This document shows positions 45,320-53,821 of a DNA stretch of 64,000 bases, piece after piece; positions within the stretch are counted from its first letter, which is position 1; the number at the start of each line of letters is the position of its first letter. Under the pieces are notes generated by a model that was given only the letters and a program-made list of their open reading frames with translations, made no database searches and was not told where the DNA came from. The DNA comes from an uncultured Acidobacteriia bacterium (lineage in GTDB: Bacteria > Acidobacteriota > Terriglobia > Bryobacterales > Bryobacteraceae): positions 1 through 64,000 of the forward strand of contig CAIYDY010000119.1 in the NCBI GenBank assembly GCA_903925015.1, in the 5' to 3' direction. Made by a program: the position numbers and the translations under genes.

Positions 45320-45676
45320 CTACTTCGACCGCTTGGCCAACAACTCCTCGACCGCGAACTCCGCAACCTTGCGCGTGAACTTGATCTCGTCGCCCGAGAT
45401 CTTCCCGGTGTATTCGATCCGGATCGGCATCCCTTGGAAATTCAAATTCTCCACAAACGTCACCGTATCTCCGGAGACCTTGCCTTCCAGCAACTCGCTC
45501 TCCCCGTTCGCCGATACCGCCCTGCCCGTCAGCTTCTCGCCCGCTACTTCAAATTCGTAGGTATAGCTCTGGGTTCCGATCTGCGTCTCGAACACCGCCG
45601 TCCACTTCCCGGCTATCTCGGCCCCGAAAAGCAGCCCCGCGCATACCAGTAGTACCGCTGCCAGACGGGCGATCAT
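45320..45676 (-). CDS. Small exported lipocalin-like beta protein
   Basis: A 118-residue protein with a signal peptide (about 1-19) and a beta-strand-rich body: IAGKWTAVFETQIGTQSYTYEFEVAGEKLTGRA, LEGKVSGDTVTFVE and YTGKISGDEIKFTRKV. This two-repeat layout resembles a small secreted beta-barrel/lipocalin-like domain common in Acidobacteria. Its ATG overlaps the stop of the molybdoenzyme large-subunit gene, so it is translationally coupled to it. Function unknown. Confidence 0.6.
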   Translation of the reverse strand: MIARLAAVLLVCAGLLFGAEIAGKWTAVFETQIGTQSYTYEFEVAGEKLTGRAVSANGESELLEGKVSGDTVTFVENLNFQGMPIRIEYTGKISGDEIKFTRKVAEFAVEELLAKRSK

Positions 45677-47817
45677 GCGAACAGCTCCGGCCGAATCGGC
45701 AGGCTGCGGACCCGTTTCCTGGTCGCGGCGAAGATCGCATTGGCAATTGCCGGAGCCACCGGCGGCACCGAAGCCTCGCCAATACCCCCCGGATTGTTGT
45801 TGGTCTCCAGGATGTGCACGTCAATCTTCGGCATCTCGTCGATCCTCAGCATGTCGTATTCATGGAAATTGCCTTGCTTGACGCGACCCCGGTCAATCGT
45901 GATCTCGCCCTTGAGCGCGGCGGTCAGGCCGTACACAATACCGCTCTCGATCTGCTGCTTGACGATGGCAGGATTCACCACCGGACCGCAATCGACGGCG
46001 CACACAAACCGGTGGACCTTCAACTTCTTGTTGACCACGGAAACTTCCGCCACCATCGCCGTGTAGCTGCCGATATTGTTCACCACTGCGACGCCTTGGT
46101 GGTGACCGGCAGGGGCCTTGCCCCAATTCGCGCCCTCGGCAGCTCTGTTCAGGACCGCCAGCAGCCTTGGGGAACCTGCCAGCATGCGCCGACGCACTTC
46201 CAGCGGATCCTTACCGCCAAGCGCTGCGAGTTCGTCGATGAATCCTTCCGCGAAGAACGTGTTCTGCGTGTAGCCCACCGCCCGCCAGAACGTGGTGGGA
46301 ATGCCCGGATCCGCCTTGCGCCAATCCACTTGGATGTTCGGGATGGCATATTCCAACGTGTGGATACCCTCCACCGCTGTCCCGTCCACAGCGCCGCCAC
46401 GACCGCCGCCGAAGAACGAGGGGCACGCGACCTTCGCCGTGAACGCCACCGGCCAACCATCGCCATCGACCGCGCCGCCGAATTTGACGTAGGAAGCCGG
46501 GCGATAGAGGTCATGCCGCATGTCGTCCTCGCGGGACCACGTGAGCTTCACATGCTTCCCGGGATTCAATTTGGCGATTTCCACCGCCTCGGTGACATAA
46601 TCCGTGCCGCTGCGCCGCCCGAAACCGCCACCCATAAAGGCGGAGTGGACGATGACGGATTCCGGTTTCAGACCGGTTATCTGCGCAGCCACTTGGCGGG
46701 TGCCGGTCTGGCTCTGGGTGGACGCCCAAACTTCGCATGCGCCATTCCCATCAACCCCCGTCGTCACCAGAACTGTGCAGTTCATCGGCTCCATCGGCGT
46801 ATGAGATTGGTACGGTGCGTGGTACTCGGCCTCGATCTTCTTTGTGGCCGAAGCCATCGCCGCAGCTGCGTCGCCGGTCGTTTTTGCGACCGCACCGGGT
46901 TTCTGCGCGTATTCCTGGAACATCTTGGTGATGTCCGGCGTGCTGAACGCTGCCACTGGACCTTCGTCGAACTGTACGGACAGCGCCTTGCGGCCCTGCA
47001 TCGCGGCCCAAGTGTTTTCCGCGACCACCGCGACGCCGCCCGAGATCTGCACCACATCCTTGACGCCGGGTACGGCCTTGGCCTTGGTGGCATCAAATCC
47101 CGACACCTTGCCGCCGAAGACAGGGCAGCGTTCCACAACAGCGAAAAGCATTCCGGGGAAGTGCGCATCCAAACCGAACTTGGCCGTGCCATTCACCTTG
47201 GATTTGGTGTCGAGCCGCTTGACGGACTTGCCGATGTACTTGAATTGTTTCGGGTCCTTCAACGCGACACCCTGCGGAACCGCGAGCTTGGCGGCATCCT
47301 CGGCGATGGAACCGTAGGAAAGTTTCGCGCCCGTAGCAGGATTCAAAACAAACCCAGAATCCGTACGTAGTTGAGCCTTGTCGGCGGACCACTTCTGTGC
47401 CGCCGCCTCGATCAGCATGGCGCGGGCGGTGGCTCCGGCTTGGCGCAGCGGGAAATACGTTGCCCGGATGCTCTGGCTGCCATACACGCCCTGGTTGCCG
47501 TAAAGTGCTGGGTTGACCGGTGCGAATTCGGTCGAAACGCGCTTCCAGTCACAATCCAGCTCGTCGGCCAGGAGTTGGGAGAGCGACGTGACCGTCCCCT
47601 GGCCCATCTCGGCTTTCACGATGATGAACCGCACCGACTCGTCCGCCCCGATATGGATGTAGGCGTTCGGGTTGACGGCACCCTGGCCCCGACCGCGGCC
47701 CTGGGCATCCAGAAACCGCTCCGGGAGGAAGAAGCCGAGGAACAGGCCCGCGCCTGTTCGCAGGGCGTCGCGCCTGGTGAAATTGGAGTTGGTCGCATTC
47801 GAAACCATCACGCTCAT
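45673..47817 (-). CDS. Molybdopterin-binding subunit of a xanthine-oxidase-family enzyme (IorB-like)
   Basis: A 714-residue exported molybdenum hydroxylase subunit. The Tat leader ([21 protein letters not shown]) is followed by IorB-type features: [68 protein letters not shown] and [20 protein letters not shown]. This subunit pairs with the [2Fe-2S] subunit encoded upstream (isoquinoline 1-oxidoreductase / aldehyde-dehydrogenase type); there is no separate FAD subunit, as in that subfamily. It would oxidise an aromatic or aldehyde substrate in the periplasm. ATGA overlaps link it to its partner on both sides. Confidence 0.88.
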
Positions 47818-48293
47818 GCCCTGCCTCCCTTGACTCCGCTCTTGATCTCGACGGCCCTATGGATCGCAGCCCGAATCTGTGTGTATGTTCCGCAACGGCA
47901 AATATTGCCGCGCATGGCCTCGTCAATGTCGGCGTCGGACGGCTTGGCCGTCTTGGCCAACAGCGACGCCACCGCCATGATCTGGCCGGACTGGCAATAC
48001 CCGCACTGCGGGACATCCTCCTCAATCCACGCTTGTTGGACCGGATGGGTGGTATCGGGCGAGAGGCCCTCGATGGTGGTCACGCTTTTCCCCGCCACAT
48101 TGGAGACCGGGGTGATGCAGGAGCGGATCGCCCCGCCATTCATGTGGACCGTGCAGGCACCGCAAAGCGCCATTCCGCAGCCAAATTTCGTGCCCGTTAG
48201 CCCTAGAACGTCCCGCAAGACCCAAAGAAGTGGGGTTTGCGGGTTCACGTCAACGGATGTCTGGGACCCATTGAGGGTAAAGTTGATCGCCAT
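47814..48293 (-). CDS. [2Fe-2S] subunit of the molybdoenzyme (IorA-like)
   Basis: A 159-residue ferredoxin-like subunit. The first cluster is [15 protein letters not shown] (plant-type, preceded by GTKFGCG). The second is [11 protein letters not shown] with [12 protein letters not shown]. It transfers electrons from the molybdopterin subunit. It starts 31 bases before the DUF2911 gene stop. Its stop overlaps the large-subunit start, so the two are made in a fixed ratio. Confidence 0.92.
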
Positions 48294-50406: not shown

Positions 50407-52104
50407 ATGTCCATTGCAGCCCGTTCCACACGCTTCTTGGGGGCTTTGTCCCTTGCCACCTTGTTTGCCTTCCAGCTCGAAGCGCAATCCGGTAGCCCGG
50501 CCGAACTGAAGGTTGTGCCTCCGCGCGTGGCATGCACCGCGCTGAAACTGGTGGATGTTTCCGGTCCGGTGGGAGCCAAGACCACGCTGCAGGAAGCGGT
50601 GGAAGTCCAGGACGGCCAACCCGCCCCCTACTGTCGCGTTCTTGGCACCATCGCCCCCGCCATCCAGTTCGAAGTTCGACTCCCCCTGGGCGGTTGGACG
50701 CAGCGCTACCTCCAAACTGGCTGTGGCGGACTTTGCGGCACCTTGAACATCTCAACTCCGCGGGCCGATTCGTGCGTGCCGGTCACGAACGGGGATGTTG
50801 TGCTGGCATCCACGGACATGGGCCACAGGAACGGTCCGGGACGCGGGAACGCCGATCCCACTTGGGCGGTCGAAAACCCCCAATCCAAAATCGACTTCGC
50901 CTACCGGGGGGTCCATCTGACTGCAATTGCGGCCAAGGCCCTGATTGAGAAGTTCTACGGCCAGAAACCCCGCTACTCCTACTTCAGCGGCTGCTCGGAC
51001 GGTGGACGGGAGGCGCTGATGGAGGCCCAACGATACCCGCAGGATTTCGACGGGATCGCCGCAGGTGCCCCGGCCATGAATTTCGTCACCCAGAACACGT
51101 TCTACCACGGCTGGAACGCATGGAAGAACACGGATTCCACAGGCAATGCGATTCTGACGCCGGACAAGCTTCCCATCCTGCATCAAGCCGCTTTGGATGC
51201 CTGCGATGCCCTCGACGGCCTGAAAGACGGCCAGATCACGGTTCCCAGCGCCTGCCATTTCGACCCCGCCGTTACGATTTGCAAGGATGGCCAGGACGGT
51301 GCGACCTGTCTCACCCCTGCCCAGGCTGCAACCGCAAAGGCGATCTACCAAGGCGCACGGACCGAAACGGGCAAGAAACTGGTTATCGGAGGTCCGCAAC
51401 CCGGCTCGGAACTCTTCTGGCAGGGCGTCTACGTGCCCCAGCGCGCCGGTGCAGCGATATTCAGTACCGGAATTTCACTCGGCACCATCAAGTACCTAGC
51501 CTATGAAAAGCCCCTCGCCCCGGAATTCGGCCTCAAGGATTTCCACTTCGACCGCGACAATTTCGACGCAATCGCCCAGATGCACCCGATCTACGACGCC
51601 ACAGACCCCGACTTGGAGAAATTTTCCGCCGCCGGGGGCAAACTCCTGATGTTCCATGGCTGGTCCGACCCCCACATCTCGCCCCTGAATTCGATTGCCT
51701 ACTACATGGCTATGGAGCGGACCATGGGCGAGGCCAAGGTCTCGAAATTCGCCCGCCTTTTCCTATTTCCGGGCGGAGGCCACTGCAACGGCGGCGACGG
51801 GCCCTTTGATTTCCCGTTGCTCAGCCTGCTGGTGAACTGGGTGGAAGGCGGCACCCCGCCGAACGCCATCTTGGCTTCGCGAAAGCAGGGCGGCAAGGTG
51901 GACCGCACACGACCGGTGTACCCTTTCCCGATCATTGCGAAGTACAAGGGCACTGGAGACCCGAATTCGGCCTCCAGCTTTGAGGGCGTGCGCGATCCCC
52001 AAGTAACTCCGGAACAATTGGACTGGCTGGGTGCCGCTTTCTACTTGCCAGGTTATGAAAAATCCTGCGAGTGGACCGGGACTGAAATGAAGTGTAAGCG
52101 CTAG
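50407..52104 (+). CDS. Tannase / feruloyl esterase family hydrolase
   Basis: A 565-residue exported esterase. The signal peptide (about 1-26) precedes the alpha/beta-hydrolase core. The nucleophile is S197 in FSGCSDGGREAL, with a disulfide-like neighbouring Cys. An Asp in FHGWSDPHISP and a His in FPGGGHCNGG complete the triad. Other family features are LQTGCGGLCG, AGAPAMNFV and a cysteine-bearing lid SACHFDPAVTICKD. It would release gallic or hydroxycinnamic acids from plant esters. The start ATG 50407 gives the signal peptide; the much longer upstream frame lies opposite the MFS gene and is rejected. Its stop overlaps that of prmA. Confidence 0.9.
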   Translation: MSIAARSTRFLGALSLATLFAFQLEAQSGSPAELKVVPPRVACTALKLVDVSGPVGAKTTLQEAVEVQDGQPAPYCRVLGTIAPAIQFEVRLPLGGWTQRYLQTGCGGLCGTLNISTPRADSCVPVTNGDVVLASTDMGHRNGPGRGNADPTWAVENPQSKIDFAYRGVHLTAIAAKALIEKFYGQKPRYSYFSGCSDGGREALMEAQRYPQDFDGIAAGAPAMNFVTQNTFYHGWNAWKNTDSTGNAILTPDKLPILHQAALDACDALDGLKDGQITVPSACHFDPAVTICKDGQDGATCLTPAQAATAKAIYQGARTETGKKLVIGGPQPGSELFWQGVYVPQRAGAAIFSTGISLGTIKYLAYEKPLAPEFGLKDFHFDRDNFDAIAQMHPIYDATDPDLEKFSAAGGKLLMFHGWSDPHISPLNSIAYYMAMERTMGEAKVSKFARLFLFPGGGHCNGGDGPFDFPLLSLLVNWVEGGTPPNAILASRKQGGKVDRTRPVYPFPIIAKYKGTGDPNSASSFEGVRDPQVTPEQLDWLGAAFYLPGYEKSCEWTGTEMKCKR

Positions 52105-52907
52105 GCCCGCAGCGCCTCGATCATCCGCCAGTCGCGCTCGCCAAATTCGCCCACGATCTCCAGTCCGGCTTTCCGCAGCGCAGCCGTAACCGTCGGCACA
52201 TCCACCGCCTCGAAGCCGCTCAGAATCGCGCGGCCGCCCGGTTTCAAAATCCGGAACCAATCGGACGCCAGTTCGGCTACCCAGGCCGGGCTGATATTCG
52301 CTACAACGATATCGGCGCAACCCTCCCCGACCGCATCCGCCGAGCCGGTAAAGACCGGCACGACGACGCCTGCCCGCTCGAAGTTCTCCTTCGCCACGGC
52401 AACGGCGTCGGGATCCGTATCGGATGCGAAGGCCCTGCCAGCCCCCAGGCGCACGGCGACCTCCGAAAGAATCCCGGACCCGGTTCCGATATCCACCACG
52501 ACGAACCCCGGCCGAACCAGGCGCTCGATCGCCTCCAGACACAGCCGTGTGGTCTCGTGCGCGCCGGTGCCAAACGCCAGACCGGCGTTGATCACCACGC
52601 GCATGCGGCCCACCGGGGTCGGCTCGTCGCGCCACTCGGGAATCACGAAAATCTTGTCACCGATTTCCATCGGTTGCAGGTACTCGCGCGCAAACGCAAC
52701 CCAGTCACGGGTGTCCGCCGGAGTGGCCTCGCCGCCGAAGCGGGACACAATTGCGGCTTGGTCTGCATGGGAGTCGAAGAAGACCCGGATGCGGGCGATG
52801 TCGTCCCAATCCTCCAGTTCCACGATGCCCGTGCACCCCGCCTCCCAAAGGTCGGCGATGGCAATTTCCTTCAGGTCTTGGCGGCAATCAAGGTCAATTG
52901 AGAACAT
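52101..52907 (-). CDS. prmA: Ribosomal protein L11 methyltransferase PrmA
   Basis: A 268-residue SAM methyltransferase that methylates ribosomal protein L11. The C-terminal core has the PrmA signature VINAGLAFGTGAHETTRLCL, SAM-binding VVDIGTGSGILSEVAVRLG, ASDTDPDAVAVAKEN and the motif VVANISPAW. The N-terminal L11-recognition domain begins IDLDCRQDLKEIAIADLWEAGCTG. ATG 52907 is used; a longer GTG start at 52928 would overlap the neighbouring start. Its start and that of the divergent DHDPS-fold gene are only 11 bases apart. Confidence 0.92.
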   Translation of the reverse strand: MFSIDLDCRQDLKEIAIADLWEAGCTGIVELEDWDDIARIRVFFDSHADQAAIVSRFGGEATPADTRDWVAFAREYLQPMEIGDKIFVIPEWRDEPTPVGRMRVVINAGLAFGTGAHETTRLCLEAIERLVRPGFVVVDIGTGSGILSEVAVRLGAGRAFASDTDPDAVAVAKENFERAGVVVPVFTGSADAVGEGCADIVVANISPAWVAELASDWFRILKPGGRAILSGFEAVDVPTVTAALRKAGLEIVGEFGERDWRMIEALRA

Positions 52908-52918
52908 AGTAGTTTCCG

Positions 52919-53821
52919 ATGAGCGCACAGGGCAAAATGAAGCTTCAGGGTATTCTGGCGTCGGTCGCGACGCCGTTCGACCACACAGGCGCGATTTACC
53001 GCGTCAAAGTCCAGCATAACTTTGAGAAGTGGTGCCGGACATCTTTGGGCGGATTCGTCGTTGGATCGCTGGCCGGCGAGGGACCGTTGCTGGAGGCCGA
53101 TGAGAAGCTGGAGTTGATCAAGCTGGCTGCTCCCATTGTCGATGATGCACGCGCGTTGATCCTGGATGTGTCCTCGGAGGGCGTGAATTCCGCGGCAACC
53201 TTGGCCGCCCGGGCTGCCGACGCCGGTGCCACCGCCGTCGTCACTTCCACCCCCTTCCGCTACCGTGAGACCGAACGCTCCGCCGAGTCCCAGTCCACCT
53301 ATTTCCGAGCTTTGGCGGACCGGTCGCCGATCCCGGTGCTGATCCACAACAACCCGGGCGCGACCGGCATCGATCTTTCAGCTGAAGTGGTGGCGGGTTT
53401 GGCAAGCCACCCGAACATCATCGGCGTTCTGGAAACCGGCACCCCGTCCAGCCGCATTTCGGAAATCCGTGCGCTCACCGGGAAGACGTTTACGATTCTG
53501 ACCGGAACCGACGCCCAGCTGTGGGACGGACTCCGGGCCGGTGCCAACGGGGCCGCCCTCGCCACCGCTTCCGCAGCCCCGTACGCCACCATCGCGATCT
53601 GGGAGGCTTTCCGTACCCGCGAGGAGGACGCCGGCATCGATTGGCAGGCGCGCATCGCCCATCCCTCGTACTTGATCACAACACTGCACGGTCCCGGCGG
53701 GCTCAAGCATGCCATGGATCTCAACGGGTACTACGGCGGACCGCCGCGTTTGCCCCTTGCTGTGCCCACGCCCGATGTCCGGGACGCCATCGAAGACGCT
53801 TTCCGCGATCTGAAGGGATAG
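52919..53821 (+). CDS. DapA/DHDPS-fold family protein lacking the catalytic residues
   Basis: A 300-residue TIM-barrel protein of the dihydrodipicolinate synthase / N-acetylneuraminate lyase family, recognisable from GILASVATPFDHTG, GGFVVGSLAGEGPLLEADEKLEL and NPGATGIDLS. The Schiff-base lysine is replaced: the usual GIKEA reads GVLETG (L171 where Lys is expected). The catalytic tyrosine that precedes NxPxRTG is H143 (IHNNPGATG). The TPYY strand reads TPFRYR. Aldolase chemistry by the normal mechanism is therefore unlikely. The rest of the barrel is intact, with no frameshift. Start ATG 52919 is 11 bases from the start of prmA. Confidence 0.8.
   Translation: MSAQGKMKLQGILASVATPFDHTGAIYRVKVQHNFEKWCRTSLGGFVVGSLAGEGPLLEADEKLELIKLAAPIVDDARALILDVSSEGVNSAATLAARAADAGATAVVTSTPFRYRETERSAESQSTYFRALADRSPIPVLIHNNPGATGIDLSAEVVAGLASHPNIIGVLETGTPSSRISEIRALTGKTFTILTGTDAQLWDGLRAGANGAALATASAAPYATIAIWEAFRTREEDAGIDWQARIAHPSYLITTLHGPGGLKHAMDLNGYYGGPPRLPLAVPTPDVRDAIEDAFRDLKG

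Follow-up and report, generated by a model that had tools for sequence, protein, structure and literature searches.

A conserved HOGA1-like gene without the Schiff-base lysine in a genus of Bryobacteraceae

The window, the whole 64,000-nucleotide stretch of DNA analyzed here, carries a gene of the DHDPS superfamily whose product has no Schiff-base lysine. The lysine is missing from every readable member of the genus, and the gene is conserved, under selection, and found at a locus that it has in common with lysine-bearing orthologues. We lean toward explaining the product as a selected pseudo-aldolase. Such a protein would form no imine, would keep an older non-catalytic role, and would hold a rebuilt pocket that probably binds a ligand.

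The window gene and its catalytic positions

52919..53821, + strand, DHDPS-superfamily HOGA1-like pseudo-aldolase gene (ORF and translation, PF00701, HOGA1 nearest by sequence and fold)

The ORF encodes 300 amino acids and is free of stops and frameshifts. The protein belongs to the DHDPS/NAL superfamily by its match to Pfam DHDPS PF00701 (E 7e-37, residues 9-294; 127.2 bits against a gathering threshold of 22.1) and also by its predicted fold, a (beta/alpha)8 barrel with a C-terminal bundle. Both parts are complete in the AlphaFold2 model (mean pLDDT 94.7, pTM 0.92), and an earlier reading made from the sequence alone was correct in describing an intact barrel and an unbroken frame. Human 4-hydroxy-2-oxoglutarate (HOG) aldolase, HOGA1 (PDB 3s5o/3s5n), whose reaction splits HOG into pyruvate and glyoxylate, is the nearest solved relative by sequence (HMMER, 2.5e-36). 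It is also the top fold match (Z 43.4, rmsd 1.5, 293 residues, 30% identity) in a VIA-align ranking of the 1000 best Foldseek chains, and both proteins carry the C-terminal segment YYGGPxRxPL. Eight NCBIfam models match the window protein, and it scores under the cut-off of all eight. E. coli DapA and N-acetylneuraminate lyase are members of the same superfamily, and DapA entries have the same fold, but the window protein lacks their catalytic set and stays below the curated cut-offs. It reaches 121.6 bits against 206.15 for DapA (TIGR00674), which does not make it a DapA equivalog, and 76.5 against 281 bits and 66.4 against 382 bits for the NAL models. A PF00701 match in genes of this kind should not be taken as evidence of DapA or aldolase activity.

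The true start may be Met7 (52937), considered because two genus genomes (G001 and G005) have stop codons at the 5' edge of the match; their open frames (296 and 294 codons) do not start before about residue 5-7. Antisense ORFs overlap the gene and were set aside because its low dN/dS accounts for conservation of the forward frame. A search for a plasmid origin gave no matches among 72,556 plasmid records at 1e-20.

Extracts of PMC3188589 describe Lys196 of HOGA1 as the nucleophile and Tyr168 and Ser77 as the proton relay. Asn78 and Ser198 handle the substrate, and Tyr140 enters from the neighboring subunit (PMC3188589, same extracts). The corresponding positions and others discussed below are as follows.

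53069..53074, + strand, Leu51-Ala52 in the GXXGE loop, at the HOGA1 Ser77-Asn78 position (alignment; HOGA1 residues from extracts of PMC3188589)
53165..53167, + strand, Asp83 (18/18 in the genus) at the strand-3 end, where the lysine-bearing comparison set has Gly
53258..53260, + strand, Arg114 for HOGA1 Tyr140' (E. coli DapA Tyr107; alignment)
53345..53347, + strand, His143 for the catalytic Tyr168 (E. coli DapA Tyr133; alignment)
53429..53431, + strand, Leu171 for the Schiff-base Lys196 (E. coli DapA Lys161; alignment)
53510..53512, + strand, Asp198 after strand 7, Ala in the lysine-bearing comparison set (Glu in 16 and Asp in 2 of 18 genus members)
53660..53662, + strand, His248, Arg in 23/28 rows of the lysine-bearing prmA clade (18/18 in the genus)
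53705..53755, + strand, C-terminal segment K263-P279 (KHAMDLNGYYGGPPRLP region; alignments)

The sequence-only reading had proposed three replacements, and each is borne out with its residue numbering. GVLETG replaces GIKEA, with G169-V170-L171-E172-T173-G174 standing at GxKExx. H143-N144-N145-P146 occupies Y-N-x-P, which puts His143 at the catalytic tyrosine. TPFRYR replaces TPYY, where Arg114 takes the place of the first tyrosine of TPxYY and the second is retained as Tyr115. The GXXGE loop had gone unmentioned. It reads S50-L51-A52-G53-E54 in the window protein and G-Ser77-Asn78-G-E in HOGA1, so the hydroxyl of the proton relay is also gone, Leu51 occupying the Ser77 position. HOGA1 Lys196, Tyr168, Ser77, Asn78, Ser198, and Tyr140 therefore correspond to Leu171, His143, Leu51, Ala52, Thr173, and Arg114, and only Thr173 is conservative. 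Residues reported as essential in HOGA1, in the extracts of PMC3188589, are absent. A misalignment concealing a lysine is ruled out by the agreement of the HMMER and MAFFT alignments, and no lysine aligns at the Schiff-base site.

An imine might still form through a displaced lysine, for example the invariant Lys263. This residue is present in 18/18 genus members and in 54/54 rows of alignment A1, and some pseudoenzymes may have migrated catalytic residues (extracts of the review PMC10211241). However, Lys263 is equally invariant in orthologues with the normal lysine and in eroded copies that have no active site, so it is probably a residue of the fold; it also lies in the C-terminal helix 258-268 of the model. 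Imine formation by this route is very improbable. The surrounding K263-P279 segment is largely retained in lysine-bearing, lysine-less, and eroded copies.

Absence of the lysine in the genus and in wider relatives

All 19 genomes of the genus hold one match at 1e-40 or better, and the match in G017 is a fragment (residues 208-300). In the 18 readable members, position 171 is Ile in 11, Leu in 4, Val in 2, and Met in 1, and is never Lys. Position 143 is His in 16, Glu in 1, and Phe in 1, and thus His143 is less fixed across the genus than the loss of the lysine. Position 51 (L10 H3 P3 M2) and position 114 (E9 Q7 R2) also vary. None of the 18 has the lysine, either tyrosine, or the relay hydroxyl, while Asp83, Arg116, Glu172, Glu/Asp198, and His248 are each present in 18/18. 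The marks of a class I (Schiff-base) aldolase, namely the strand-6 lysine, the strand-5 tyrosine, the Ser/Thr of GXXGE at the Ser77/Thr44 position, and the tyrosine from the neighboring subunit, are not found. A strain-specific loss or a sequencing error is ruled out, since the lysine is missing in all 18. The sequence-only reading had named two outcomes that would count against it, a lysine aligned at the Schiff-base position and a recent loss in only one strain, and neither was seen. It had also asked whether relatives share the changes; they do so genus-wide for the loss of the lysine and in 16/18 for the histidine.

That reading had also proposed either a pseudoenzyme with a binding or regulatory role or a different, metal- or acid-base-type chemistry. 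The absence of Schiff-base chemistry is well supported, as the catalytic set is absent in 18/18. A metal site is not supported, as His143 becomes Glu or Phe in 2/18. The term pseudoenzyme applies in that an enzyme fold (predicted model) without the catalytic motif (alignment) is maintained by selection (dN/dS).

Across the whole family, matches at 1e-25 are present in 203 of 237 genomes, and 15 of the remaining 34 were searched again at looser limits. Eight of these hold shortened copies (G022, G120, and G127-G132), and G091 and G068 carry fragments. The looser search of the 15 found no orthologue in G078, G101, G125, G137, or G153. Three of these genomes, G101 (97% complete), G153 (90%), and G125 (90% or higher), yielded not even an eroded orthologue and are possible cases of complete loss.

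An alignment of 166 rows contains the lysine in 106 and no lysine in 60. Thirteen named loci, mostly contig-end fragments but including the nearly complete L082 and the broken L199, were excluded beforehand, together with rows shorter than 235 aa, near-duplicates, and all rows under 33% identity save three outgroups. The lone K among the shortened rows (L201) sits in a gapped stretch after a deletion and was scored lysine-less. The lysine is also missing from two rows that retain the tyrosine, L029 (Thr) and L167 (Asn); these could reflect sequencing errors or early loss, and both were counted as lysine-less. The second family of the order (f3) has no lysine in any of the 14 rows sampled, which were taken into the alignment from 18 genomes searched. 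The f3 version (L173-L188 without L182 and L184) carries other common changes, such as T52W and G196R.

The lysine is therefore missing beyond the genus, having also been lost in other lineages of Acidobacteriota. The tree of the 166 rows, with the eroded segments omitted, has at least seven state changes, and its well supported branches force two. Another tree, in which L201 is scored K and the fragment L104 lysine-less, has well supported branches that force four. The eroded copy L198 falls within the group of genus code g36 (support 100), and an eroded group of L084, L087, L088, and L100 joins a lysine-bearing g78 group (support 87). Eroded g5 rows do not group with lysine-bearing g5 rows. 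An AU test against a single lysine-less clade gave p 0.021 on 74 rows (32 lysine-less, 42 lysine-bearing) chosen after the 166-row tree was seen, a subset in which the fewest changes are three. One loss common to all lysine-less proteins is disfavored by this test. Many lysine-less rows have long branches, which limit the tree, the loss counts, and the AU test.

Locus, selection, and eroded copies

52101..52907, - strand, prmA (ribosomal protein L11 methyltransferase), divergent neighbor (Pfam PrmA 2e-53; head-to-head arrangement common to relatives)

The ATGs of prmA and the pseudo-aldolase gene are 11 bp apart (window 52901-52940), or 29 bp if Met7 is the start. With so little room, the promoter of either gene presumably overlaps its neighbor or is contained in it. 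Some relatives likewise have almost no gap to prmA, and in others the gap is hundreds of bases long. The head-to-head arrangement is found in the lysine-less genus genes and in many lysine-bearing orthologues of about 46-50% identity. Lysine-bearing Bryobacterales orthologues (about 45-50% identity), such as L028 beside prmA and L058, which matches HOGA1 at 7e-56, also have the C-terminal segment and retain G-S-T-G-E, Y, Y, and K, catalytic side chains of which the window protein keeps none. Because many of them too sit head-to-head with prmA, we infer that a HOGA-like aldolase was converted in place.

Neighbors were counted in 165 rows, the window row being left out. Of the 106 rows with the lysine, 22 have prmA upstream, 50 have atpB and/or atpE there, and 2 have bshC nearby, with 32 in other settings or at contig edges. 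The 59 lysine-less rows have prmA upstream in 25, atpB and/or atpE in 17, bshC nearby in 11, and other settings or contig edges in 6. Pfam searches of representative neighbors confirmed PrmA, ATP-synt_A, ATP-synt_C, BshC, and TRCF. In g5, 6/6 lysine-bearing and 8/8 eroded rows lie directly behind atpB-atpE, as do 5/5 lysine-bearing rows of g36 and its lone complete eroded copy (L198). For g5, only gene position argues for in-place conversion, because the gene tree separates its eroded and lysine-bearing rows.

In 67/165 rows, some with the lysine and some without, the HOGA-like gene immediately follows atpB and/or atpE (F0 subunits a and c) in the same orientation; examples are L063, L209, L198, L087, L206, and L217-L226. 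In 11/14 f3 rows, bshC (bacillithiol synthesis) adjoins the gene in place of prmA or atpBE. The neighbors prmA, atpB-atpE, and bshC vary by lineage and point to no partner, and they give no clue to the substrate of the lysine-bearing relatives.

A dead paralogue can serve as a partner, and by analogy with the prozyme of trypanosome AdoMet decarboxylase the window protein could assemble with and control an active DHDPS-fold paralogue. Activation of this kind is a known mechanism, according to extracts of PMC5201418, and the same genome has six other matches to the window protein. Those six, however, are only 21-25% identical and lie on other contigs, every one of the 19 genus genomes has a single match at 1e-40 or better, and genes with and without the lysine occupy the same positions. 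The single match per genome and the common positions make the dead gene look like a replacement rather than an extra copy, and a regulatory partner is an improbable explanation. Outside the genus there is an exception, as G024 holds both the lysine-less L027 and the lysine-bearing L138 (36-38% identity).

The window gene is under purifying selection in its nearest comparison, the 93 codons of the G017 fragment (dN 0.015, dS 0.58; dN/dS 0.025). Fifteen lysine-less pairs with dS below 0.5 have dN/dS of 0.094-0.294, and the eroded pairs among those below this limit have 0.094-0.213. A pair that includes the broken copy L199, kept out of the 15, has 0.123. Six lysine-bearing pairs with dS below 0.5 range from 0.033 to 0.242, or to 0.109 without one Bacteroidales pair. 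The medians are 0.145 for lysine-less and 0.216 for lysine-bearing pairs, which are neither independent nor matched in dS, so a Mann-Whitney test was not used. Since their dN/dS is far below 1, the lysine-less genes are read as functional, though constrained somewhat less tightly.

Shortened proteins of about 240-280 aa have evolved in several lineages. The parts lost differ among them and comprise the loops at GXXGE and strand 4, helix 5 together with the strand-5 end, and helix 6 together with the strand-6 end; the first half of the protein and everything from roughly strand 7 onward are retained. One such copy, L229 (248 aa), was modeled with a pLDDT of 94.7 and a pTM of 0.91, a result that may be helped by the full-length relatives in its input alignment. 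The model lacks helices 5 and 6, has six strands of at least three residues and two shorter remnants, and can be superposed on HOGA1 along 247 residues (Z 32.0). Within their genera, the eroded copies remain conserved.

These data also bear on whether the gene is a decaying relic headed for loss. Many lysine-less rows are on long branches, several lineages have missing pieces, and close lysine-less pairs show somewhat higher dN/dS than lysine-bearing ones, as decay would have it. Decay is nonetheless a most unlikely account: dN/dS is far under 1, the eroded copies are maintained, and the only stops flagged among the 18 genus copies (in G001 and G005) precede the Met7 start.

The pocket and the possible roles of the protein

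The catalytic face was defined by hand as 58 sites from the strand ends of the model, after a first list of switches had been seen. As a ratio to the protein overall, mean entropy on the face is 0.61 for the lysine-bearing prmA clade and 0.25 for lysine-bearing g5. The values are higher for this genus (0.94), f3 (1.14), and eroded g5 (1.38). A fixed switch was one held at 85% or more on both sides. Between the genus and 76 lysine-bearing rows there are 20, of which 12 fall on the 58 face sites of 289 (Fisher 5e-5): T52A, S55G, V56P, G83D, G85S, S88G, K116R, Y143H, S174G, G175T, A198E, and N218S. The lysine-bearing comparison sets, 28 and 76 of the 106 rows, were picked by hand. Two lysine-bearing controls placed 0/1 and 0/5 switches on the face, few in each case, and f3 placed 10/35 (p 0.13; 9 of its 14 rows). 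As a whole, the face of the genus is no better conserved than chance (P 0.30; 109/288 mask shifts), whereas in lysine-bearing groups 8/288, 1/288, and 2/288 shifts are as conserved. We read the pocket as rebuilt in the window's genus and neglected elsewhere. From their strand-end positions, the pocket side chains would share one space. A concerted and then fixed change of this kind fits binding or new chemistry better than passive decay.

New chemistry would mean an acid-base or metal active site that uses Asp83, Glu172, Glu/Asp198, His143, His248, and Arg116 and forms no imine. These residues are fixed or nearly fixed in the genus (18/18; His143 16/18), and apart from Glu172 none is the residue usual in lysine-bearing orthologues. 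The switches also cluster on the catalytic face. Yet His143 gives way to Glu or Phe in two of the 18 copies, His248 sits in the C-terminal bundle and not at a strand end, and the face overall is not better conserved than the rest (109/288), unlike that of lysine-bearing groups. A new active site is therefore rather unlikely.

The pseudo-aldolase explanation can be set out as a sequence of steps. A HOGA1-like class I aldolase would have been converted in place into the window protein. The ancestral enzyme may already have had a second, non-catalytic role, in binding or assembly, that depended on regions away from the active site, probably including the C-terminal helical bundle. Because such a role needs no catalysis, the gene could survive the loss of the lysine here and of helices 5 and 6 elsewhere. 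In this genus the pocket would then have been refitted with the fixed polar residues Asp83, Arg116, Glu/Asp198, and mostly His143, with Glu172 kept, and it probably still binds a small ligand non-covalently. The window protein would thus be a ligand-responsive binding or scaffold protein and not an aldolase.

Among the parts compared in the genus, conservation is highest in the C-terminal bundle (236-300; entropy 0.572 against 0.800 overall). The bundle does not stand out in this way in the lysine-bearing prmA clade (0.586 against 0.574) or in eroded g5 (0.576 against 0.503). For the bundle core (236-280), 18/288 shifts are as conserved in the genus, against 31/288 and 17/288 in lysine-bearing groups, and the conservation of the bundle may just reflect the fold. 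Because conservation of the core is about the same in lysine-bearing groups and the face was hand-drawn, our confidence in the second role and the ligand pocket is slightly lower. A few genomes that seem to be without the gene, such as G101 and G153, also speak against a retained second role.

Extended beyond the genus, the reading is tentative and somewhat less probable than its opposite. The second role of a Bryobacterales HOGA-like aldolase may have outlived catalysis more than once, with the lysine, tyrosine, and relay residues lost in place, followed in some lineages by helices 5 and 6 and the active-site loops, and with the pocket of the window's genus rebuilt as an imine-free ligand or reaction site. 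Most known pseudoenzymes are duplicated copies. Here a single gene seems to have been converted in place, in several lineages, with the same pieces of the barrel repeatedly removed. The likeness to other pseudoenzymes is the absence of the family's conserved catalytic motif (extracts of the review PMC10211241). No comparable case in the DHDPS superfamily appeared among the titles and abstract openings listed in searches of open-licence PubMed Central. At one locus, living relatives of one gene would preserve the full enzyme, the loss of residues, the rebuilt pocket, and the removal of helices. If true, this is a natural series for studying the non-catalytic roles of an aldolase and the extent to which a TIM barrel is dispensable under selection.

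Elsewhere in the window, 45673-48293 on the - strand holds ORFs of 714 aa and 159 aa that by eye resemble the two subunits of a molybdenum hydroxylase (aldehyde or isoquinoline oxidoreductase type).
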